From Martelella sp. HB161492 (lineage in GTDB: Bacteria; Pseudomonadota; Alphaproteobacteria; Rhizobiales; Rhizobiaceae), in the NCBI RefSeq assembly GCF_013184775.1, contig NZ_JAATVV010000002.1:462301-526300 (forward strand): a stretch of 64,000 bases of DNA. Direction: 5' to 3'. The notes beneath the pieces were generated by a model. It ran no database searches and was not told where the DNA came from. It saw only the letters and a program-made list of their open reading frames with translations. Shown here in pieces: positions 6,191 through 16,091 of this stretch; the stretch's first letter is position 1, and each line of letters begins with the position of its first letter. A program made the position numbers and the translations under genes.

Positions 6191-6257
6191 GCTCTATCTT
6201 ATTGAATCTACAAATTGTTTTTCGAAAATCGATTCCGATTTTAGCGCCGATGCGCTA
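6191..6257 (-). repeat. Dispersed rhizobial-type intergenic repeat, copy 2 (inverted)
   Basis: Read on the minus strand this copy begins TAGCGCATCGGC, continues ATCGGAATCGATTTTCGAAAA and ends TAGATTCAATAAGATAGAGC. It matches copy 3 (47251-47320) nearly base for base at both ends. Its first three bases (TAG, 6255-6257) are the stop codon of the MFS gene. Confidence 0.8.
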
Positions 6258-7694
6258 GTCCTGCCGATCGCTGGAAACACCGGCATGTCTGCCCGGCAGC
6301 CCGACCGAAGCCAGAAGTGTCAGGACGTGGATGAGGCAAAGGGCCAGAAACGCCAGAGCGTAAGGGGTCGATACCGACGGGTGCGGCGCATGCCCGTCGA
6401 GATTTAGGGCAAGAAAGCTCGCGCAAAGTGTGGTGAAGGTCGGACCGCCCAGCCGCTGGACGATGTTCATGGAGGTCGTGGCCATCGGAAGGTCCGGTTT
6501 CGAGACGGACATGTAGGCTGCCGTCATCGTCGGCAATCCGATCGCGCTCATCCCCATGCCCCGCAGAAACAGTGCCAGTTCAAGCATGACCAGATCAAGA
6601 CCATGGAATGCCATATAGACAAACGGTATCGTCGCCAGCAGCGTCAGCAAGGCACCGCCGGCCGCGACTTGCCGAAGGCCAAACCGGTCGGTCAGCTTCC
6701 CCATCAACGAATAGGTGACCAGCATCCCGCCCCCCATCGGCGCGAGCATCCAGCCCATTTCGGCCGAGCTGCGGCCGCAGGCACCGATGAGAAAGGCCGG
6801 GATCAGGAACTGGCCGGCGAACTGCGCCCCATTCGACAGGAACTGTGTGAGGGCACCGATCGAAAAGGCCCTGCGCCTGAACAGCCGGAGGTCGATCAGC
6901 GCATCGCCGCGCTTGCGTCTGGCATCCGCAAGAAAGGCGACCATCATCACGATGCCGGCAACGAAAAGGACCCGCCCCATGCTCTCGCCGATCTTGTCGG
7001 CGCCATAGAGAAACAGGCCCAGGCCGGGAGAAAGCAGCGCCAGACCGACCCAGTCCAATCTTTTCGCGGTCACCGCGTCCCGCTCGTCTGGCAGAAACAG
7101 GATCGCCAGCACCAGCGCGAGAACCCCGATGGGAAGATTGATCAGGAACAGCCAGCGCCACGAGGCATATTGCAGGATCGTGCCGGCAATGACCGGCCCG
7201 AGCACCGGCGCAAGCAGAACCGGAAGCGCCATATAGCCCGCAACCCGCGCCATCTGCCGGCCGGCGGCCCTTGCGATCATCATCTGCGCCATGGGCGCGA
7301 GCAGGCCACCGCTGACCCCCTGAAGGAGCCGAAATGCGATCAGTGTGTGCGCCGACCAGGCGAGCCCGCAGACGGCCGACAGCAGCGTGAAGCTTGCAAA
7401 GCACCAGAGATAGAGCCGCTTTGCGCCGATCCGGCCAACCAGCCATCCGCTCAGCGGCAGGGCCAGCGCCAGCGCCAGAAGATAGCCGCTCATAACCCAC
7501 TGGATGGTTTGAAGGGTTGAATGGAGCTCTGTGGCGAGCGTCGATAGCGAGACATTGACAATGGTCGCGTCGAGCTGTGCAAGCAGGCCACCGAAAAGCG
7601 CGACAGCGGCGATTTTCCAGACAGACCGGTCGAGCCGGTCTTGCTGATGACACTGTTGGGAAAGGCCGTTTCCCGATGTTGGCGGAACTGACAT
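6255..7694 (-). CDS. DHA2-family MFS drug/proton antiporter
   Basis: A multidrug-efflux type major facilitator of about 479 aa with 14 predicted membrane segments (EmrB/QacA group). Visible marks are 'LDATIVNVSLSTLA' in TM1, 'LALALALPLSGWLVGRIGAKR' (motif A region) and 'RLLQGVSGGLLAPMAQMMIA'. The frame is open up to an ATG at 7727, but that start would overlap the upstream gene by 29 bp. The ATG at 7694 lies just past that gene's stop and has an AGGA 11 bases ahead, so it is preferred. This is the last gene of the MarR-led leftward operon, which suggests export of, or resistance to, a small aromatic compound. The stop codon is supplied by repeat copy 2. Confidence 0.88.
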   Translation of the reverse strand: MSVPPTSGNGLSQQCHQQDRLDRSVWKIAAVALFGGLLAQLDATIVNVSLSTLATELHSTLQTIQWVMSGYLLALALALPLSGWLVGRIGAKRLYLWCFASFTLLSAVCGLAWSAHTLIAFRLLQGVSGGLLAPMAQMMIARAAGRQMARVAGYMALPVLLAPVLGPVIAGTILQYASWRWLFLINLPIGVLALVLAILFLPDERDAVTAKRLDWVGLALLSPGLGLFLYGADKIGESMGRVLFVAGIVMMVAFLADARRKRGDALIDLRLFRRRAFSIGALTQFLSNGAQFAGQFLIPAFLIGACGRSSAEMGWMLAPMGGGMLVTYSLMGKLTDRFGLRQVAAGGALLTLLATIPFVYMAFHGLDLVMLELALFLRGMGMSAIGLPTMTAAYMSVSKPDLPMATTSMNIVQRLGGPTFTTLCASFLALNLDGHAPHPSVSTPYALAFLALCLIHVLTLLASVGLPGRHAGVSSDRQD

Positions 7695-7698
7695 CCGC

Positions 7699-8034
7699 TC
7701 AATGATCCTGAGGGGCATTGCCGCCATTGAAGCGTCCGAAGGCGCGGGCGGAGAACATGGCGATCAGCAACACGCCGATACCGGCCGACGAGGCCTGGTC
7801 GACGGCGCGGATATCGAAATCTCCCACCAGAACCAGAAACACATAGGCGAGGATGATATTCGCACAGCCCCACAGCACATTGACTGTCGAGGATGACAGG
7901 CCCTCGCCATGCGGCCTGGCAAATGGGCTCTGGAAGGAACGCCCCATCATGCCCGAGACGAAATGAGGAATGGCGTTTGCGAGGAACATGCCGCCGACAA
8001 GATAGGATAAATCGTGAAGCCAGCTCATGCGCAT
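7699..8034 (-). CDS. Small integral membrane protein of unknown function
   Basis: A 111 aa protein with three to four hydrophobic stretches (LSYLVGGMFLANAIPHF, NVLWGCANIILAYVFLVLVG, SSAGIGVLLIAMFSA). I do not recognise a named family. The start overlaps the end of the isochorismatase-fold gene by 10 bp and the stop lies 5 bp before the preferred start of the efflux pump gene, so translation is probably coupled within the operon. The conserved-looking first helix with GGMFLANAIPHF resembles small membrane proteins found beside transporters, but no function can be assigned. Confidence 0.7.
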   Translation of the reverse strand: MRMSWLHDLSYLVGGMFLANAIPHFVSGMMGRSFQSPFARPHGEGLSSSTVNVLWGCANIILAYVFLVLVGDFDIRAVDQASSAGIGVLLIAMFSARAFGRFNGGNAPQDH

Positions 8035-8594
8035 GCGCTCCTCGTTTCAAGACAATCGAGAATGTCCTGCGTTGTAGCTGTTTCTCCGATCCGGGGAAAA
8101 ACCCGTTCGGTACTCCATCTGTGCGCATCCTCGCGCATGTCGGTCATGGCATCCGTTGCCAGCGCCACATGGAAGCCGAGTTCGTGGGCCTGACGCGCGG
8201 TCATTTCGACGCCGTTGCTCGTGGAAACACCAGCGATCACAACCTGCGTCACGCCGGCAGATCGCAGATGGGCTTCAAGATCGGTGTGGGTGAACGCGCC
8301 GGGCGTCATCTTTGTCACCAGGTGATCCCCGGCCTGTCGGTTCAGGTCCGGGATCAGCTCTGCCCAGTCGTCCGGCACCTCCCGCAAGGGGCGCGGCAGC
8401 TCTGTCCGGCCTGACGGGCCGCCGGCCACATTGACCAGCACGACGGGCAAATCAAGTGTGCGAAAGGCTGTCACCAACGCCACGACATTGTCCACCACAG
8501 CGCTGATCGGATGAACCGTTGGCATCGACACGATGCCTTTTTGAAGATCAATGACGATGAGACCGCAGTCCCTGTCGAGGGGCGATATGGACAC
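8025..8594 (-). CDS. Isochorismatase-fold hydrolase lacking the catalytic cysteine
   Basis: 189 aa, with the alpha/beta fold of the isochorismatase/cysteine hydrolase superfamily. The family Asp (LIVIDLQKG, residues 12-20) and Lys (LVTKMTPGAF) are in place. At the position where N-carbamoylsarcosine amidases and nicotinamidases carry their nucleophile (T-x-x-C-V), this protein reads STSNGV, with Gly instead of Cys. It therefore resembles isochorismatase proper or an uncharacterised subgroup that does not use thiol catalysis. It is the second gene of a leftward unit, between marR and a small membrane protein, and probably modifies the compound sensed by MarR or exported by the pump. Confidence 0.82.
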   Translation of the reverse strand: MSISPLDRDCGLIVIDLQKGIVSMPTVHPISAVVDNVVALVTAFRTLDLPVVLVNVAGGPSGRTELPRPLREVPDDWAELIPDLNRQAGDHLVTKMTPGAFTHTDLEAHLRSAGVTQVVIAGVSTSNGVEMTARQAHELGFHVALATDAMTDMREDAHRWSTERVFPRIGETATTQDILDCLETRSACA

Positions 8595-8665
8595 GATAAA
8601 GTCCTTTCAGAAAATGAGGGGCGATGCCGGGCTGCCCGCCGCTGCGTTACGGGGATCGCCCGGGG

Positions 8666-9121
8666 TCATTGCGGCGAGGACGCATCCCCCAATCGCCGGA
8701 TCAGCCGCGTTGCCGCCACCAGCAATTGCCTTTCGTCGTCCGAAAATGCGGCCATCGCCTCCAGAAGCCATTGCTGCTTCGCAGCGCTTCTCCTGTCGCG
8801 GGCGTCCGCTCCCTTTGGGGTCAGCACGAACAGAACCTGTCGGCGGTCGCGCGGATGCGGGCGTCGCGCAACAAGCCCTTCGCGCTCCAGCTCGCTCAGT
8901 GTCATGCCCATGGACTGCGGCTTCACCGCTTCGGCACGCGCCAGATCGGCCGTCGTCATGGCGCCCGCTCGGTCAAGGCGCGCCAGCACGCTGGTCTGTG
9001 ACCAGCTCAGCCCATCCGGATTGGTGGCAGAGCGCAAGCGGCGCAGAAGCTGACCAATCGCCAATGACAGATCGGTGACTGCGGCTTCGGCGGACGTTTC
9101 ATTCTCGATGGAATTTGCCAT
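8666..9121 (-). CDS. MarR family transcriptional regulator
   Basis: A winged-helix repressor of 151 aa from the ATG at 9121. It has a central wHTH (QTSVLARLDRAGAMTTADLARAEAVKPQSM) and the wing with the DxRQ/R pattern (RPHPRDRRQVLFVLTPKG). The open frame reaches an upstream ATG at 9157, but that codon lies inside the palindrome at 9138-9171, so initiation at MANSIENE (9121) is more likely. First gene of the operon marR - isochorismatase-fold - membrane protein - DHA2 pump. Autoregulation through the palindrome just upstream is strongly suggested. Confidence 0.88.
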   Translation of the reverse strand: MANSIENETSAEAAVTDLSLAIGQLLRRLRSATNPDGLSWSQTSVLARLDRAGAMTTADLARAEAVKPQSMGMTLSELEREGLVARRPHPRDRRQVLFVLTPKGADARDRRSAAKQQWLLEAMAAFSDDERQLLVAATRLIRRLGDASSPQ

Positions 9122-9137
9122 GAAGGGCACGATATAA

Positions 9138-9171
9138 TTTAACAGGTAAACTTGCAAGTTTATCTGTTAAA
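9138..9171. promoter_or_regulatory. 34-bp near-perfect palindrome, probable MarR operator
   Basis: The left half TTTAACAGGTAAACTTG (9138-9154) is the reverse complement of the right half (9155-9171) except for one pair (9146/9163). It sits 17 bp ahead of the marR start, where a dimeric MarR repressor would overlap the promoter. The half-site is AT-rich, as is common for MarR operators. Confidence 0.75.
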
Positions 9172-9370
9172 AATTCGAAGACGGTCTCCGGACGTGCGAC
9201 ACCGGCAAAGCGGTCGTCTCCCGATATGCTGGAGCAAGGCACGCGGCGCATCCCTCTCCCGCCTGCGTCGGGCAAATCACCGTCCGGGGTGCTTCAATGC
9301 GATGAAAGCGCAGGCCGAACAGCCTGCGCTTTCATCTTTATTCCAGGCTCCGGCGGGAGCCGAAGAGGTC

Positions 9371-10132
9371 TCAGCGATCGAGGAGCGAAGCCGCATCCTG
9401 ATTGAGGTAGAGCGTTGCCTGCGGCGTCTTCTTCAGCAGCGAAGCCGGGCACATGAATGTGACCGGGCCTTCAAGCGCCGTCTTGATCACGGGCGCCTTG
9501 TCCTTTTCATGCACTAGTGCCAGCACGCGGCCCGGCTTCAGCAGGGCGTGCATGGTCAATGACAGGCCATATTTCGGAACGGCATCCATGGTCTTGAAGA
9601 TACCGTTCTTGAAGACCTGACCACGGGTCGTCGGATCAAGAGCGACAACGCGGATCACATCCTTGGTGTCGAAATCGGCCGGCGGATCATTGAAGGCCAG
9701 ATGGCCGCTTTCGCCGATGCCGACAACGCAGAGCACAGGCTGATGATCGTTGTAGATCTTCGTGTAGCGGGCGAGTTCGTCTTCCAGGGATTCAGCGGCA
9801 CCGTTCATCGGGTAGAAAGCCTTCGGCTTCACCTCATTCAGCAGATGCTTGCGCATGCGGGATGCACCGCTTTCCTCCTGGCTTTCATGGACACCCATAT
9901 AGGTATCGACATGCAGAACGGTGATCTTGCTCCATTCGATATCATTGCGCGCCTTGATGGCGGTGAAGAATTGCGGCTGGGCAGCGCCGAGCGCCATGAT
10001 GATGCAGATCTCGTCCTTCTTGGCGAGTTCGGCCTTGATGGTGGTGGCCAGCGCTTCGGCTGCGGCTTCGCCCTGTTCCTGATCGCTGGCACCGACCAGA
10101 ACTTCCAGCTCTCCATATTTCAGATGTTCCAT
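9371..10132 (-). CDS. NagB-like sugar-phosphate isomerase/deaminase with altered active site
   Basis: 253 aa, of the glucosamine-6-phosphate deaminase/isomerase (NagB/RpiA/SoxR-like) fold. VLHVDTYMGV aligns with the LDEYVG segment of NagB, so the proton-transfer Asp (Asp72 in E. coli) is kept. In the second site, GIGESGHLAFNDPP replaces GxGxDGHIAFNEP: the Asp141 equivalent is Glu, His143 is kept and the Glu148 equivalent is Asp. The shifted carboxylates suggest a substrate other than glucosamine-6-phosphate. GGAAG precedes the ATG at 10132. It lies 227 bp downstream of the GntR gene in the same direction and belongs to the operon with ROK kinase, PvcA-like protein and amino-acid importer, or to the same regulon. 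Confidence 0.8.
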   Translation of the reverse strand: MEHLKYGELEVLVGASDQEQGEAAAEALATTIKAELAKKDEICIIMALGAAQPQFFTAIKARNDIEWSKITVLHVDTYMGVHESQEESGASRMRKHLLNEVKPKAFYPMNGAAESLEDELARYTKIYNDHQPVLCVVGIGESGHLAFNDPPADFDTKDVIRVVALDPTTRGQVFKNGIFKTMDAVPKYGLSLTMHALLKPGRVLALVHEKDKAPVIKTALEGPVTFMCPASLLKKTPQATLYLNQDAASLLDR

Positions 10133-10302
10133 TTTTCTTCCTTTCTGTGGTCATTCCTGGTCGCCGAAAAGACACGACCGGTCCTTTTCAGCCAGCGGCA
10201 TCACCGCCGGCTGAATTGCGTGAAGGCTTGTCCTTCAGTGTCGGGCTAAAGCGCCTTTTGCTCCCAATGGTTCAGATCGGCGCCCTATCTGGATGTTGTT
10301 TC

Positions 10303-10349
10303 GAGCATAATCTTATCGACCCTCATTTCATTGCGGCCGGATTATGCTC
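10303..10349. repeat. Inverted repeat between GntR and NagB-like genes
   Basis: GAGCATAATC (10303-10312) and its exact reverse complement GATTATGCTC (10340-10349) are separated by 27 bp. The pattern resembles the abundant rhizobial repeats bounded by GAGCATAATC. It may also form a hairpin in the mRNA that affects expression of the downstream NagB-like gene. Confidence 0.55.
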
Positions 10350-10359
10350 TGGCGAAGCC

Positions 10360-11142
10360 TCAGCTCCGCTCTTCCCTCGGCGCATAGCGAACGCCGAAGG
10401 GAAAGGTCACGTTGAATTCGATTTCGAGGTCGACGAAGGTCTCCTCGAGAAAACGGTCGATGAGGAAATGGTCCTTCTGCCGGATCGCCTGCAGCTGCCG
10501 TGTATGCACTTCGATCATATGCTGCGCCCGATCCTCGGTCTGACTGAGCGCGCCGCGAAGCGGATTGAGCTCGCGATAGATACCGTTCATCGTCCGCCGC
10601 AGCACCTGATTGCCCGTTGCATGGGCGATACGGCGGTGAAACATGCCATCGGCCTGCAGCACGATATTCGGCTGATCAATATGCTTCTGCATCAGCACGA
10701 TCGTATCGGCGATCTGGTCCAGCTCGCGATCGGAGGCATTTTCCGCGGCCATATGATAGACGATCGGCTCGATCATCCGCCGCGCCGTGATCAGTTCGGC
10801 AACGTGATCGGCCTCCAGTGCAATCTTCTGTCCCAGCACTTCCGCAGGGATCATTTCCGAGGCAACGAAAATGCCGCCGGCCTGCCCCGGACGGATCAGC
10901 AGCACGCCGGAATTTTCGAGAACCCGCAGCGCCTGGCGCAGCGTCGGCCGCGAGACCTGCAGCTTCTCGGCCATGTCCTTTTCATTCGGCAGGCGATCGC
11001 CCTGCACCAGACCTTCAGCATCGATGGCATCGACAATGCGCTCGATGATGGTCTGGAATGTCCGGTGTACGGTGATGGGCTTAAACGCGCCGGAACTGTC
11101 TTTTCCGAACGGTTTGGCTCCCGACTGACTGGGTCGCATCAA
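10360..11142 (-). CDS. GntR family regulator (FadR/FCD subgroup)
   Basis: 260 aa. The N-terminal winged helix-turn-helix has the GntR signature (GDRLPNEKDMAEKLQVSRPT, then LRQALRVLENSGVLLIRPG, about residues 49-90). It is followed by an all-helical C-terminal FCD ligand domain whose histidine-rich positions (RRMIEPIVYHMAAE, MFHRRIAHATGN, HTRQL) would bind a metal and a small acid. The start overlaps the ROK kinase stop by 4 bp, so the two are translationally coupled. It is the obvious in-operon regulator of the importer / PvcA-like / ROK / NagB-like unit. Confidence 0.88.
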   Translation of the reverse strand: MMRPSQSGAKPFGKDSSGAFKPITVHRTFQTIIERIVDAIDAEGLVQGDRLPNEKDMAEKLQVSRPTLRQALRVLENSGVLLIRPGQAGGIFVASEMIPAEVLGQKIALEADHVAELITARRMIEPIVYHMAAENASDRELDQIADTIVLMQKHIDQPNIVLQADGMFHRRIAHATGNQVLRRTMNGIYRELNPLRGALSQTEDRAQHMIEVHTRQLQAIRQKDHFLIDRFLEETFVDLEIEFNVTFPFGVRYAPREERS

Positions 11143-12014
11143 AACGCCTCTTCCCTCTCCTTAAGCCCCAGGATCACACCGCGCTCTGCGGCATGATCGA
11201 GTGGTGAAATCGCGATCTCGGCGACAAACGGCTTTGAAAGGCCATCATGGTAGACATCGCTTGCCGGGCCGAGAAAATCCGCCGCCGCATGCTTGATCGA
11301 ACCGTTGATGGCAATTCTCTCCGGATGGTAGAATCGCGAGATCATCTGCATGGTTTCCCCGAGATAGCGCGCAAAGATGCGCACCGTTTTCTGTGCTGCC
11401 GCCTCTCCTAGCCGCGCACGCGCAAAGATTGTTACGGCTTCCGCACGATCTTCACAAAGTTTTTCGTATATTTCCCGCATGCCGCGTCCGCACACCGTGC
11501 GATCCAGCGAGCGGTACTCGCCCAGCTCCTCGACATAGACCGGCTGCTCGGAAATCAGGCCTGCGGCATAGCTGCCACGCAGCACCGCCCCATCGTAAAA
11601 GCCGATCCCGATTCCCGTACCAATGTTGAGCAATGCCACAGGCCTGTCGCGCGATGCCTCAACGAGACGCGCTTCGGCGATACCCATGGCATGAAGATCA
11701 TCATCGGCGTGAACTGTCTTCTTCAGTCGCTCGGCCAGATAGGCCTGCAGCGGAAAGTCGACAAGGCCGCCCATCAGCGAGGAATAGACCACATGACCCC
11801 GGTCGAGAATTCCGTTGAGGGAAACCCCGACCCTTGCGACACCCGGCGGACAGACAGCTTCGATCAGCGACGCCAGATCTGCAGCAAAAGCCTTGGTGCC
11901 GCGCCGCATCAGCGCCGTTGGCGTGCGTCCGAGCGGCAGGACATGATTATCTTCGTCAATGAGACAGTACTGGATCTTGGTGCCACCAATATCCACACAG
12001 AAATCCACCGTCAT
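11139..12014 (-). CDS. ROK family sugar kinase
   Basis: 291 aa. The N-terminal phosphate-binding loop is CVDIGGTKIQYCLID (residues 6-20), and the family's ADDDLHAMGIAE and NIGTGIGIGF segments follow, the latter being the second phosphate motif. The usual ROK CxCGxxGC zinc site is not visible; only VCGRGMREIYE marks that region, so this is a zinc-free member. It probably phosphorylates a hexose, an amino sugar or an N-substituted sugar brought in by the operon's ABC importer, before the NagB-like enzyme. The start overlaps the stop of the PvcA-like gene by 4 bp and the end overlaps the GntR start by 4 bp. Confidence 0.85.
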   Translation of the reverse strand: MTVDFCVDIGGTKIQYCLIDEDNHVLPLGRTPTALMRRGTKAFAADLASLIEAVCPPGVARVGVSLNGILDRGHVVYSSLMGGLVDFPLQAYLAERLKKTVHADDDLHAMGIAEARLVEASRDRPVALLNIGTGIGIGFYDGAVLRGSYAAGLISEQPVYVEELGEYRSLDRTVCGRGMREIYEKLCEDRAEAVTIFARARLGEAAAQKTVRIFARYLGETMQMISRFYHPERIAINGSIKHAAADFLGPASDVYHDGLSKPFVAEIAISPLDHAAERGVILGLKEREEAF

Positions 12015-13120
12015 CCAAGCACCCGATAGCCGATCGGCGCCGGATCGGCTTCGCCGTCAAGATGAAGCGCTTCCAGAACCATGTTCTCCATGCCGCCGAG
12101 ATAGCGGATCGTCCATCGCCCGTCGGCGCCGAGCACCGGCACACCATGATAAGGCAGGATCTTCGACCAGGTATTGACCGGCGTCACCGCCAGATTTTCG
12201 GGTTTCGGCGAGACAGTCAGCTTCAGTGCGTTGGGTCTGAGATTATGCAGATAGCCCGTCGAATCCCTGAGATTGATGATGGCGCGATAGGCAAAGACCT
12301 GCCGGTGCGCAACCTTCTCGATATAGTCCCGGACATAACGCAGCGCCGATTCCGTCTGATCCGGATCATAGGCGGCGGCCAAAAGCTCCGGCTCGTAATC
12401 CTGTGTCGGAACCGATGTGCGCGACGCCTTCACCGTCGTCGCATAGGCATCGACGATCCCGGCCTCGCCCTGGGCATGCAGCTCGCGCAGGCGCTCCTGC
12501 TCATGGATCCAGCGCGCCTCAAAATTGGGAATATCGCTGACCATCGTATCCAGGCTGTGAAACGTCACCCGCTGCGGATCGACACCGGCTACAGCGACAC
12601 TCGCGGCAATGCCGGCGCGATAGGCGGCAATATCCTCAGGCGGCACGCCCTGGCAGCGGCCGAGAATGCCTTCCTCAAGGATCGTCAGGCGGGCGCCCGG
12701 CGCGTAGACAGCGCCAACGGCGTCAAGGACCGCCTGGAACCGGCGCAGCATCAGAGCCTCTCCGAGATCGGGCGCCTTGCGGTCCGTCTTCAGCGGATTG
12801 GGCGACTTGTAGGGAAAGGCCATCGACACGAATTCGAGCGGCTTGCCGGCTTCGACAAAGTGGCTGATCTTCTTCAGCCAGGCCGCGCGATTGGCCGGAA
12901 TGAAGGACGGATCGCCAAACAGCACCTCCGGATCTTCGAAGATCGACAGGATACGCTCCTGCGTCGTGCCGTTACTGGCTGCCGTGACGATGATATCATT
13001 GCCAAGCAGCAGGGCATTGAGCGCTTCGGCATTTGCGACCGTCTTCTTCTCGATCTTCGGCGGCGTGAAACGCTTCGGCAATTCGGCGTTGACGTAAATA
13101 TAGGGGCTGGGCATCGGCAA
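12011..13120 (-). CDS. DIT1/PvcA (isonitrile synthase) family protein
   Basis: 369 aa. I assign this to the DIT1/PvcA family on the block FVSMAFPYKSPNPLKT (about residues 98-113) followed by PDLGEALMLRRFQ and YAPGARLTIL, which is the conserved FPxKSPNxxK - PDxGExLxL - YxPGAxxTI order of that family. Characterised members convert tryptophan or tyrosine plus ribulose-5-phosphate into an isonitrile (PvcA/IsnA) or make dityrosine precursors (Dit1). No PvcB-type iron/2-oxoglutarate oxygenase is present here. Instead the gene sits between an amino-acid ABC importer and a ROK kinase. AAGAAG lies 7 bases before the ATG. The ends overlap or abut neighbours (6 bp to the ATPase, 4 bp overlap with ROK), so it is a true operon member. 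The reaction is unknown. Confidence 0.75.
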   Translation of the reverse strand: MPMPSPYIYVNAELPKRFTPPKIEKKTVANAEALNALLLGNDIIVTAASNGTTQERILSIFEDPEVLFGDPSFIPANRAAWLKKISHFVEAGKPLEFVSMAFPYKSPNPLKTDRKAPDLGEALMLRRFQAVLDAVGAVYAPGARLTILEEGILGRCQGVPPEDIAAYRAGIAASVAVAGVDPQRVTFHSLDTMVSDIPNFEARWIHEQERLRELHAQGEAGIVDAYATTVKASRTSVPTQDYEPELLAAAYDPDQTESALRYVRDYIEKVAHRQVFAYRAIINLRDSTGYLHNLRPNALKLTVSPKPENLAVTPVNTWSKILPYHGVPVLGADGRWTIRYLGGMENMVLEALHLDGEADPAPIGYRVLG

Positions 13121-13126
13121 TCTTCT

Positions 13127-13927
13127 TTACTGACGGATCCGCGACAGGAATTCTGCCGTGCGCGGATGCTTGGAATTGCGGATCACGTCCGATGGCAAAC
13201 CGGCTTCGGCAACACGGCCGTGATCAATGAAATAGAGCATGTCGCCGACTTCCTCGGCGAAGGTGATTTCGTGGGTAACGACCATCATGGTCATGCCGTC
13301 GCGGATCAGATCCCGCATCACGGCCAGAACCTCACCAACAAGTTCCGGATCGAGGGCCGACGTCGGCTCGTCGAACAGGACAAGTGAAGGATTGGCAGCA
13401 ATCGCCCGGGCGATGGCCACGCGCTGCTGCTGACCACCGGACAATTGCGCCGGAAAGGCATCGGCGCGATTGGCAAGACCGACGCGGTCCAGCAGCAGCT
13501 TGCCGCGTTCAAACGCCTCGTCGCGATTCATCTTCAAGACCATGCGCAGGCCGGCGGTGACATTTTCAAGCGCAGTCATGTTGGGAAACAGATTGAAGCG
13601 CTGGAACACCATGCCGATGCTGCCGCGCCGGCGGGCCGTGGTTTTCGGATGGGCCTCGACGAATCGGTTGCCACGCCGTTCCGCGCCGACGAGATAATCC
13701 TCGACCCAGAGCTGACCGCCCTCATAGCTTTCGAGGCTGTTGACGCAGCGAAGAAGCGTGCTCTTGCCGGAGCCGGACGGGCCGATGACAAAGGCCGCCT
13801 GAGCGCGCTTGACCGTCAGGTCAATGCCCTTGAGCACTTCGAGATGACCGTAATTTTTCTTCAGGTCGTGAATGCGGATGACATCGTCCGCCGGCCCGGA
13901 AGCGGGCATATCGTGAACCATGTTCAT
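13127..13927 (-). CDS. Polar amino acid ABC transporter ATP-binding protein
   Basis: 266 aa, GlnQ/HisP type ATPase. Walker A GPSGSGKST, Q-loop in VFQRFNLFPNMT, signature LSGGQQQRVAIARA, Walker B LVLFDEPTSALDPE and the switch histidine in VVTHEITFAEE are all present. It energises uptake by the permease encoded 3 bp upstream and the receptor beyond. Genes immediately downstream encode the PvcA-like protein and the kinase, which ties uptake to their metabolism. Confidence 0.93.
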   Translation of the reverse strand: MNMVHDMPASGPADDVIRIHDLKKNYGHLEVLKGIDLTVKRAQAAFVIGPSGSGKSTLLRCVNSLESYEGGQLWVEDYLVGAERRGNRFVEAHPKTTARRRGSIGMVFQRFNLFPNMTALENVTAGLRMVLKMNRDEAFERGKLLLDRVGLANRADAFPAQLSGGQQQRVAIARAIAANPSLVLFDEPTSALDPELVGEVLAVMRDLIRDGMTMMVVTHEITFAEEVGDMLYFIDHGRVAEAGLPSDVIRNSKHPRTAEFLSRIRQ

Positions 13928-13930
13928 CTC

Positions 13931-14806
13931 CTATTTCTCTGTCGTCACGGTCCGGCGCTTCGTGCTGGCACTGCGCGCCAGACGCTTCTCCAGCCAGGCC
14001 TGACCGAGTGAGGCGATCGACACGAGGATCAGGTACCAGATGGAAGCCACCATCAGCATTTCGATCACATAGAAGGTCTGAGCGGCGATGCTTTGCGTCG
14101 TTCCGAGGATTTCCCGCGTGCCGATGACATAGACGAGCGAGGTTGACTTCAAGAGGTCGATGGCGAGATTTCCCGCCGTTGGAATAATCACCCGAACGGC
14201 CTGCGGCAGGACGATCTTCATCAGCGCATGCCCCGGCGTCATGCCGATCGAAAGCGCGGCCTCGGTCTGTCCCGGATCGACAGAGATCAGGCCGCCACGA
14301 ATGATCTCGCACATGAAGGCCGAGACATTCAGAAACAGGCCAAGCAGCGCCGCCGTCGTCGGATTGATCAGACTGTTGGTGGCAATCGCGTGACCGGCGA
14401 TCTCGATCTTGGGCAGGAAGAGCCCGAGATTGAACCAGAAAACGATCTGCACCAGCAGCGGCGTCCCGCGGAAGAACCAGATATAGACCGAGGCAATCGC
14501 CTCAAGCACCGGATTGCGCGAGATCCGCATGGCGGCCAGCAAAGTGCCGAGGACGAGCGAACCGACGAAGGACACGACGGTCAGGACCAGGGTCGTGCGA
14601 ACGCCCTTCAGAACCACGTCCGAAAACAAATAGTCGGCCACCACATTCCAGCGGATCTGGCCACTGCCAAGGACGATCCAGGCCGCAACACATACGACGG
14701 CAACGGCAATCAGGGCGAAGACGATGTTGCGGATCAGAGGCCCCGACCTGCGATGAATGCGCAGGCCGGCGTCCAGTGTGGGATGAGATATGATCTCATG
14801 TGTCAT
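13931..14806 (-). CDS. Polar amino acid ABC transporter permease
   Basis: 291 aa, HisM/GlnP family inner-membrane subunit. The family core is seen in 'SFVGSLVLGTLLAAMRIS', 'YIWFFRGTPLLVQIVFWF' and the EAA loop 'EAALSIGMTPGHALMKIVLPQA'. There is an extra hydrophobic segment near the N-terminus (IVFALIAVAVVCVAAWIVL). Only one permease gene is present, so it probably works as a homodimer. It is followed 3 bp later by the ATPase gene. Confidence 0.93.
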   Translation of the reverse strand: MTHEIISHPTLDAGLRIHRRSGPLIRNIVFALIAVAVVCVAAWIVLGSGQIRWNVVADYLFSDVVLKGVRTTLVLTVVSFVGSLVLGTLLAAMRISRNPVLEAIASVYIWFFRGTPLLVQIVFWFNLGLFLPKIEIAGHAIATNSLINPTTAALLGLFLNVSAFMCEIIRGGLISVDPGQTEAALSIGMTPGHALMKIVLPQAVRVIIPTAGNLAIDLLKSTSLVYVIGTREILGTTQSIAAQTFYVIEMLMVASIWYLILVSIASLGQAWLEKRLARSASTKRRTVTTEK

Positions 14807-14823
14807 GCGAACATGCCCGCCGA

Positions 14824-15723
14824 TCAGAACAGCGCATCATTCAGCGTGATCGGATCAAGCCCGCCGTCGCCGACGCTCCACTTGTCCATGATCTTCTGGT
14901 AGCTGCCGTCTTCGGCCATCGCCTGCATGGCTCCGGCAAGCGCCGCCATCATGTCCGTCTTGTCCTTGGCAAAGGCAATGCCCTGATTGGCGGGGGCAAA
15001 GCGTGGAACAGGTGACAGTTCAAGCTGGGTCTGGATACCTTCGGTCGCGGTGTGAAGCGTGTAGTTCGAGACACCATAGGTGTTCATGGTCGCATCGGCC
15101 TGGCCGCTGGCAACGGCCAGATACGGACCGGACTGATCAGCCGTCTCCGTCAAAGCGACAGGCATTTCGCACTTCTTGTTCAGATCATCGATGATGGCAG
15201 GAAACAGCGATCCGGTGACGATTGCGACCTTCTTGCCGCAGAGATCCTCCATCGTCTTGATATCCAGAGGGTTGCCCTTCTTGACGATGACGCCGGAACC
15301 TTCCTGCGAATAGTCGATGAAGTTCACAACCTCTTCGCGGGCCTTGGTGTCCGCCATGGCACTGACATAGAAATCGTAGCGGCCCGACTGAACACCGGGA
15401 ATGCCGGCCGTGAACTGAATAACACTCCAGTCAATGGTGAGGCCGAGACGCTTTGCCGCCTCGTTCATGACATCGACGTCCACGCCGACAGCTTTGCCGG
15501 TCGCCTCATCGACGAAAGACCATGGCGCATTGCCATCCGTGGTGGCCGCTGCAAGCGTGCCCTTTTCCTTGACATCGGACGGCAGCATCTCTGTCCATCC
15601 CGTTTCGGCGGCCATCTTCGGCGTCACCTCAAGCGATTGTGCTGCGGCAGTCTCTGCCAGGCAGGCAAAGGCGACACCGCAGAGCGCGGCACTCAGAAAG
15701 GCTGTGGTTTTGGAGCGGGTCAT
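14824..15723 (-). CDS. Amino acid ABC transporter substrate-binding protein
   Basis: 299 aa periplasmic receptor of family 3 (Glu/His/opine type). The signal peptide ends near ACLAETAAA. The mature protein carries KEKGTLAAATTDGNAPWSFV, the family block GVDVDVMNEAAKRLGL and the lobe-2 strand GKKVAIVTGSLF. AAGGGG precedes the ATG at 15723. It is the first gene of the leftward operon and the promoter-proximal region carries AAAGGGA/TCCCTTT inverted repeats. The ligand is unknown; an amino acid or an amino-acid conjugate fits best. Confidence 0.92.
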   Translation of the reverse strand: MTRSKTTAFLSAALCGVAFACLAETAAAQSLEVTPKMAAETGWTEMLPSDVKEKGTLAAATTDGNAPWSFVDEATGKAVGVDVDVMNEAAKRLGLTIDWSVIQFTAGIPGVQSGRYDFYVSAMADTKAREEVVNFIDYSQEGSGVIVKKGNPLDIKTMEDLCGKKVAIVTGSLFPAIIDDLNKKCEMPVALTETADQSGPYLAVASGQADATMNTYGVSNYTLHTATEGIQTQLELSPVPRFAPANQGIAFAKDKTDMMAALAGAMQAMAEDGSYQKIMDKWSVGDGGLDPITLNDALF

Positions 15724-15758: not shown

Positions 15759-15802
15759 AAAGGGATACTCGTTTTCCCTTTAAATGGCAATAGGGTTTCC
15801 CT
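15759..15802. promoter_or_regulatory. Inverted repeats AAAGGGA-n9-TCCCTTT and AGGGTTTCCCT upstream of the SBP operon
   Basis: AAAGGGA (15759-15765) pairs with TCCCTTT (15775-15781), and a second small palindrome AGGG-TTT-CCCT lies at 15792-15802. They stand 36-79 bp before the SBP start and face the divergent LysR gene. A regulator site (GntR or LysR) is likely, but which protein binds cannot be told. Confidence 0.5.
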
Positions 15803-16091
15803 TTGACTTTTTTAATCGACCCCGACAAGGGCACCGACAGGCTTTCGCCACCGGTCGGAAACGCGCCGCCGGGACCTGCGACCGCCACCCCCACCGGCAT
15901 CATCGGGGGTGGCCAATGCGGCAGATCTCGGCCATTGTCAGCGTCAGCGCCTGCACCCTGGCGGTCTCAAGAATCACGCCTGCCCCGCGCATCGGCGATC
16001 CGCCCCAGGCGGCCGAAACACCGATCTGGTATCGCAGGACCCGCTCTTGCCGGACCAGTGGTCGCGCGGCGCATGCAAACGGGAAACGACA
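15803..16091. other. Rest of the SBP - lysR intergenic region
   Basis: The divergent space between 15724 and 16091 is 368 bp. Apart from the inverted repeats at 15759-15802 I see no gene. Open frames upstream of lysR (to 15909) lack recognisable protein sequence. Confidence 0.5.

Follow-up and report, generated by a model that had tools for sequence, protein, structure and literature searches.

The isonitrile synthases PvcA and IsnA, yeast Dit1, and the operons for sialic acids, amino sugars and Amadori compounds are the described systems closest to the locus analyzed here, a seven-gene operon at positions 9371-15723 of a 64,000-nt stretch (the window) of contig NZ_JAATVV010000002.1 from Martelella sp. 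HB161492. Isonitrile synthases use the C2 carbon of ribulose-5-phosphate, and PvcA presumably passes through an imine between the amine and the ketose phosphate at the start of its reaction. Amadori operons (frl, fra) carry their deglycases, which are SIS members, beside a kinase. The isonitrile synthase reaction joins the nitrogen of an amino acid to a carbon of ribulose-5-phosphate (PMC7949033). Dit1, which belongs to a spore-wall context, resembles isocyanide synthases yet is reported not to be one and most likely makes N-formyl tyrosine (PMC7345447); likened to the protein studied here by description and not by sequence, it provides a precedent for another product within the PvcA/DIT1 family.

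The Martelella operon encodes a PvcA-like protein, which we call PVC together with its subfamily relatives, among genes for an ATP-binding cassette (ABC) importer, a ROK kinase, a GntR regulator and a NagB-like isomerase (Table 1). It resembles the sialic acid and amino sugar operons (NanR, NanK, NagB) in having a NanR-like GntR, a NanK-like ROK and a NagB-like isomerase, all below curated cut-offs, but its seven genes include no lyase, epimerase or deacetylase family recognized by Pfam and instead combine PVC with a PAAT importer. No description of a PvcA-ROK operon was found in the open-licence literature searched. Judged from sequence, PVC and its operon represent a new subfamily and a new operon type, whose chemistry is a prediction: with a probability of roughly 0.45, we read the locus as a catabolic operon under GntR control, whose substrate would be imported and would be either an amino sugar with a carboxylate or a conjugate of a sugar and an amino acid.

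PVC and the isonitrile synthases

The PF05141 match of PVC, the sole one in its genome, lies well above the family cut-off (26.4 bits) but covers only positions 1-120 of the 273-position profile, with the remainder divergent. A profile built from 18 PVC proteins aligned with four canonical-type PvcA rows over 257 columns (hhalign E 1.7e-22), corresponding to residues 82-367 of the window protein. An AlphaFold (AF2) model of PVC (pLDDT 91.6, pTM 0.90) had PvcA itself (PDB 3e59) as its best PDB match (Z 25.8, root mean square deviation 2.9 over 287 residues), and Foldseek alignments to the PvcA/IsnA structures 3e59, 9dh4 and 9dhm showed 17-24% identity. Because the profile alignment reaches beyond the N-terminal half and the modelled structure matches 3e59, we consider PVC, on its predicted structure, to be a PvcA-fold protein; the initial annotation of the window had anticipated the PF05141 membership. 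Behind the PvcA/PIsnA entries, the next fold matches of the model (residues 49-369) were class I tyrosyl-tRNA synthetases (Z about 11). The model comparisons suggest that the PvcA fold, tyrosyl-tRNA synthetases and cyclodipeptide synthases may share an amino-acid-binding ancestor. Cyclodipeptide synthases were also among the weak matches of the PVC model.

Residues F102, K105, K111, D118, E121, Y167 and H325 (window numbering) were invariants common to PVC and the canonical-type sequences, the latter being four rows picked by PF05141 score and context and not proven enzymes. Other canonical residues were exchanged in all 23 PVC copies: D116 for Glu, H258 for Ser, Q260 for Lys or Arg, and W282 for Tyr (L056 numbering). 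The aligned stretches of 3e59 carry the same four canonical residues, whose conservation suggests that they may have a role; Arg114, in turn, is invariant in PVC. Against the L-tyrosine isonitrile synthase equivalog NF045653, PVC scored 43.1 bits, with a cut-off of 600. No PvcB relative was detected in the open reading frames (ORFs) of the 19 relative loci searched (E up to 1e-3), and none lies near the window operon, as the initial annotation had remarked; the genome's single TauD-family match belongs to a different contig. In contrast, a TauD (PvcB-type) gene adjoins the canonical-type gene in two of the three such loci examined, and the neighbors of PVC are instead an importer, a ROK kinase and NagB or SIS enzymes. 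With a score far below the cut-off, altered canonical residues and no PvcB in the neighborhood, PVC is not a member of the isonitrile-synthase equivalog. The public record labels the PVC gene of one plasmid locus (L007) as "L-tyrosine/L-tryptophan isonitrile synthase family protein," which is probably misleading.

The PVC-ROK pair in three architectures

Two peptide patterns, run against 84,980 species genomes, yielded 17 loci, a lower bound, and three architectures were distinguished among the relatives. Type A (the window and L014-L023) has the order SBP-permease-ATPase-PVC-ROK-GntR-NagB, where SBP is the solute-binding protein; this order was identical in 10/10 relatives, so that the dedicated operon with importer, kinase and isomerase partners proposed from the window alone is conserved. 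Its hosts are Devosia, Kaistia, Mesorhizobium, Martelella, Rhizobium, a metagenome-assembled genome (MAG) labelled Enterobacterales, and two Actinomycetota, namely Nakamurella (L021) and a Microbacteriaceae MAG (L023), a spread that marks the operon as old; the named species include Kaistia soli, Devosia elaeis, Martelella alba and Rhizobium smilacinae. One type-A locus (L019) carries two NagB. Type B (L025-L027 and the plasmids L007 of Agrobacterium and L008 of Microvirga) consists of an AraC regulator, a tripartite ATP-independent periplasmic (TRAP) transporter DctP-DctQ-DctM, PVC1 and ROK, with a second PVC in 4/5 loci and an SIS enzyme likewise in 4/5. All 16 type A and B loci, window included, thus have an importer of one kind or the other (ABC or TRAP) together with a regulator.

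Type C (L024, L028 and L029, labelled Patescibacteria group, candidate division CPR3 and Paceibacterota) comprises an upstream protein of 343-531 amino acids, PVC and ROK; HAD hydrolases lie near in 3/3 loci (by Pfam for L028 and L029, by similarity only and on the other strand for L024), and no importer or regulator was recognized in these loci. On a Lokiarchaeota contig (L030), a 321-amino-acid upstream protein is followed by a PVC gene running into the contig end, where ROK is not assessable. The upstream proteins of these candidate phyla radiation (CPR) bacteria and of the Lokiarchaeon are PvcA paralogues over nearly their full length by profile comparison (hhalign E 6.2e-12), and one of the three scanned matches PF05141, at 19.2 bits and below the cut-off. 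The CPR bacteria with two PvcA paralogues and the kinase have genomes of about 1 Mb.

Across the three architectures, PVC and ROK were adjacent in 19 of 20 loci, the remaining one being the broken PVC copy of G754 (L045); the truncated Lokiarchaeota contig is not among the 20. With ROK starts chosen by alignment, the distance from PVC stop to ROK start in 18 relatives was between -29 and +3 bp, and the two genes overlap by 4 bp in all 11 type-A loci, the window among them. PVC and ROK are the core of the loci. Their partners share this history: in ten type-A loci (excluding L020, which nearly duplicates the window), PVC distances correlated with those of the six other genes at r 0.71-0.88, with 0-1 of 2000 permutations as high. 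When the ROK was compared with plasmids, the best two of 176 records were two PVC-linked ROKs (138 and 127 bits), and the other ten listed scored 58-66. A close ROK occurred in 2/259 sampled genomes of the order, both with PVC, a third match being weak (9e-16), and a close NagB in 2/249, both of them PVC genomes. All seven window genes are under purifying selection relative to Martelella alba (dN/dS 0.014-0.063); gene order, selection and coevolution together rule out a chance grouping. The NagB gene stands apart in its dS to Martelella alba (0.54, compared with 0.13-0.27 for the other six genes), possibly reflecting recombination or a different history.

Few genomes carry PVC. Sampling at most 400 genomes per group, so that the distribution is a lower bound, and counting the genomes from which the loci were taken, we found PVC matches in 5/297 genomes of the window's order (one of the five, G237, with another subfamily), in 2/385 of its class (its own genome and G614, which is canonical-like), in 3/239 of the phylum of L028 (with G754 broken and G827 a weak partial match) and in 1/148 of the Lokiarchaeon's phylum (the genome of L030 itself). 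PF05141 overall matched in 6/398 Pseudomonadota genomes, five of them above the cut-off, and one IMG/VR scan with the PVC profile gave no viral relatives.

A tree drawn with a midpoint root, its long branches flagged, placed the canonical and other PF05141 sequences on one side of a split (support 96/93) and, on the other, the divergent paralogue together with the three PVC types. Type A formed one clade (100/99) and types B and C joined at only 81/82; the tree did not show PVC as a whole to form a single clade to the exclusion of the divergent CPR paralogue. Further PF05141 proteins (L012, L052, L046, L053 and L054) had no adjacent ROK match and were excluded from the PVC count; L012, L052 and L054 fell outside PVC in the tree, in which L046 and L053 were not placed. 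Two of these, L012 from the window's order and L052 from its family, represent a different PF05141 subfamily of about 470 amino acids without ROK; a HAD hydrolase adjoins the former gene, and aldo/keto reductase and RES domain genes lie near the latter.

Operon layout and operator

The operon consists of seven minus-strand ORFs, exactly where the initial annotation had placed them and with the families it had named, and the Pfam scores of all seven proteins exceed their cut-offs. SBP and permease are separated by 17 bp; from the permease to GntR the spacing is 3, 6, -4 and -4 bp, in keeping with the short gaps and 4-bp overlaps first described, and 227 bp separate GntR from NagB.

Two abutting 23-bp palindromes precede the SBP gene. 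At up to 2 mismatches, the operator matched twice in the window (0.14 expected), and the proximal site is the only exact match in the 5.28-Mb genome. Sites with at most 4 mismatches occurred in the 100 bp preceding the called start of SBP in 8/11 type-A loci, with 0.005-0.078 sites expected per locus from the density over the locus, and a second site lay 23 bp upstream of the first in 5/11. In L022, the site is 93 bp inside the called SBP gene, whose start was probably set too early; L019 has a similar sequence at the SBP start that exceeds 4 mismatches, and by the same threshold L023 lacks a site. A looser regular expression found the element near the SBP start in 9/11 type-A loci. These features fit a local repressor site that the operon's GntR would bind. 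A wider regulon was considered and rejected, as looser genome matches (up to 2 mismatches) numbered 17 versus 16 in the control and gave no further targets.

Table 1. Features of the Martelella operon and of the related loci. Positions refer to the window except where another locus is named.
Feature	Position	Strand	Remarks
Distal operator	15782-15804		23-bp palindrome, 2 mismatches; abuts proximal operator
Proximal operator AAAGGGA-N9-TCCCTTT	15759-15781		Exact palindrome 5' of SBP gene
SBP, PAAT family 3 solute-binding protein of importer	14824-15723	-	PF00497 108 bits; first operon gene in 10/10 type-A relatives
Importer permease	13931-14806	-	PF00528 67.5 bits
Importer ATPase	13127-13927	-	PF00005 107.4 bits; top NCBIfam model GlnQ 289.6 bits, below cut-off 379
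PVC, PvcA/DIT1-superfamily enzyme, new subfamily by sequence	12011-13120	-	PF05141 70 bits; 369 aa
ROK sugar kinase, PVC-linked subfamily	11139-12014	-	PF00480 90.3 bits (cut-off 22.9)
GntR/FCD regulator, NanR-like	10360-11142	-	PF00392 49.6 bits, PF07729 74 bits; NanR model 92.5 bits, below cut-off 260
NagB-I-like sugar-phosphate isomerase/deaminase	9371-10132	-	PF01182 62.4 bits; nagB model TIGR00502 102 bits, below cut-off 236.9
Inverted repeat	9301-9336		15 bp, just 3' of NagB stop
Genes following the operon	6255-9157	-	Outside the conserved seven-gene set
Divergent PvcA paralogue upstream of PVC, L024	8192-9787		
Divergent PvcA paralogue upstream of PVC, L028	7071-8135		
Divergent PvcA paralogue upstream of PVC, L029	20-1051		
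Divergent PvcA paralogue upstream of PVC, L030	1675-2640		
Second operon, L007	12317-16938		Beside TRAP-PVC-ROK
PVC without ROK, L045 (G754)	8543-9664		In-frame TGA
NagB and truncated GntR, L058 (Mesorhizobium sp. AR07 plasmid)	9341-10757		
Other PF05141 subfamily, L012	8586-10001		
Other PF05141 subfamily, L052	8217-9617		

The inverted repeat behind NagB has a terminator-like score for the plus strand only. On the same strand as the operon and after it lie genes for an efflux-like membrane protein (by eye), an isochorismatase-family hydrolase and a MarR regulator.

A candidate catabolic pathway and its alternatives

The families that accompany PVC point to amino sugars. Scores below the curated cut-offs place the ROK closest to the kinases of N-acetylmannosamine and N-acetylglucosamine, and the regulator is nearest to NanR, again below its cut-off. 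In 19/19 ROK rows, the usual His and zinc motif (GxGH/CxCG) are absent and the catalytic Asp is kept, the roles of these positions being assumed from other ROKs; the missing zinc motif marks a subfamily and not an exclusion from ROK. The position held by NagB in type A appears in type B to be taken by the SIS enzymes: in four such proteins from three loci, the best models were GlmS isomerase or NagB-II and the PDB matches included the deaminase 8eol, and SIS had no match in any type-A locus. NagB-I-type and NagB-II/GlmS-type enzymes thus replace each other. That two unrelated families, each with glucosamine-6-phosphate deaminases among its members, fill one position is what chiefly argues for an amine on C2 of the sugar. 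The chemistry of NagB-I, NagB-II and PvcA involves such an amine in every case, which favors a linkage of the Heyns type (C2-N) over one of the Amadori type (C1-N).

The importer may bring in a modified amine. The SBP has Thr where a glutamine/arginine-binding relative has Asp, with Arg kept (11/11); Arg presumably binds the carboxylate and Asp the alpha-amino group, and the residues would fit an N-substituted ligand. The initial annotation was therefore right in naming an importer, but its "amino-acid" ligand is, as far as the sequences indicate, a family label. A structure prediction for the SBP was discarded (pLDDT 51). Related PAAT importers (SBP 33-36% identical) adjoin sugar isomerase/epimerase genes on Agrobacterium-type plasmids. 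In L007, a second operon beside TRAP-PVC-ROK encodes an SIS enzyme, a PAAT ABC importer and a BadF-type kinase and adjoins a ROK regulator; the locus has two SIS proteins in all and an asparaginase on the far side.

In the catabolic pathway we propose, the PAAT ABC importer (the TRAP system in type B) would take up the compound, and the dedicated ROK kinase would phosphorylate its sugar. PVC would then act on an imine of amine and ketose phosphate, hydrolysing or rearranging the conjugate rather than fragmenting the sugar, and the NagB-I-like (type A) or NagB-II/GlmS-like SIS enzyme (type B) would convert the resulting (amino)sugar phosphate to a ketose phosphate for glycolysis. Families and context support the first (import) and last (NagB/SIS) steps; the PVC step with its chemistry, the substrate class, the order of the steps and the direction of the pathway are predictions built on the observed homologies, gene order, coevolution, operator and selection. 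That the enzymes form one pathway, as the initial annotation had suggested, is supported as an idea. Of its two readings, the catabolic one is favored because importer and regulator occur throughout the type A and B loci, because of the families in the isomerase slot and because the canonical residues are replaced in every PVC copy; for the other, a new isonitrile pathway supplied by ROK and NagB, the fold is the only positive evidence.

Several observations weigh against catabolism of an amino sugar or its conjugate. In 11/11 NagB rows, the equivalents of Asp72 and His143 are kept, but those of Asp141 and Glu148 are Ser and Asp (numbering and catalytic roles as we take them to be in Escherichia coli NagB); given these changes and the low score against the nagB model, the enzyme may not be a glucosamine-6-phosphate deaminase. 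The scanned type B SIS proteins likewise fall below every cut-off, and both enzymes may have other substrates. In the SBP of L023, the residue just ahead of the Thr is Asp, which makes the argument from the pocket soft. Known Amadori operons, to our knowledge, need no PvcA-like enzyme, so analogy leaves the role of PVC unexplained. Type C, with HAD hydrolases and without importer or regulator, fits an intracellular or biosynthetic role better, and its module may be biosynthetic or serve salvage. The partners can also be found apart. In G754, a genome of the phylum of L028, PVC occurs without ROK and without a PvcA paralogue beside it; its in-frame TGA makes a decaying copy likely. For this genome, a changed genetic code was considered but found no support: reading TGA as Gly leaves 9/11 other ORFs of at least 150 codons at the same length and extends the remaining two by 6 and 26 codons. 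A plasmid of Mesorhizobium sp. AR07 carries an intact NagB (75% identical) without PVC or ROK, beside a truncated GntR (58%); an ORF that by eye resembles a transposase gene and an operon of ABC and SolA-type oxidase genes lie close by. GntR and NagB probably remain from a former type-A operon. The idea of an alternative NagB pathway involving the SolA-type oxidase was dropped, since GntR is truncated and NagB looks remnant-like.

The shared fold and invariant residues keep in view a new isonitrile- or N-formyl-type biosynthesis, in which PVC would join an imported amino acid to a ketose phosphate made by ROK and the NagB or SIS enzyme and the product would be used without PvcB. The importer-less type C loci with their HAD hydrolases, and the probable N-formyl tyrosine product of Dit1 in the same family, would accord with it, but the equivalog score, the four exchanged residues and the lack of a TauD partner speak against it, as does the fact that the matched NagB and SIS families act on hexosamine phosphates and not on pentose phosphates; we consider it unlikely. 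An Amadori (C1-N, fructosamine) pathway, with ROK as fructosamine kinase and NagB/SIS or PVC as 6-phosphate deglycase, strikes us as decidedly unlikely. The operon shares the Amadori logic of importer, kinase and deglycase/isomerase, importers and deglycases are known in Amadori use (Frl, Fra), and L007, with its two SIS proteins, its asparaginase and its second PAAT importer with BadF kinase, could be accommodated. Type A loci, however, lack SIS and hold a ROK nearest to amino-sugar kinases, a kinase and an SIS enzyme would suffice without the extra PvcA-fold enzyme, and we know of no fructosamine deglycase with a NagB-I fold. Improbable, in our view, is a PVC unrelated to the sugar-amine linkage, for example in amino acid transfer or activation, beside a ROK and NagB that serve a plain amino sugar: tyrosyl-tRNA synthetases are the next-nearest fold, but at a Z far below that of PvcA, and the near-universal PVC-ROK pairing and the constant 4-bp overlap in type A tie PVC to the kinase.

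The catabolic reading can be extended further, to a form that we regard as doubtful. PVC and its own ROK might work as one module to cleave (or form) bonds between an amine and sugar C2 and might preserve an older role of the PvcA fold in primary metabolism, from which isonitrile synthases derived; proteobacteria and actinobacteria would then possess a pathway, the first of its kind, dedicated to Heyns-type conjugates of sugars and amino acids, with an intracellular version including the divergent paralogue in CPR bacteria and Asgard archaea. The presence of a PvcA-like fold in conserved uptake operons of unrelated microbes suggests a use in taking apart a sugar-amino acid compound. If so, the PvcA fold would perform chemistry of carbon metabolism in a new catabolic route for sugar-amine compounds, and the isonitrile-forming reaction would gain a possible evolutionary starting point.

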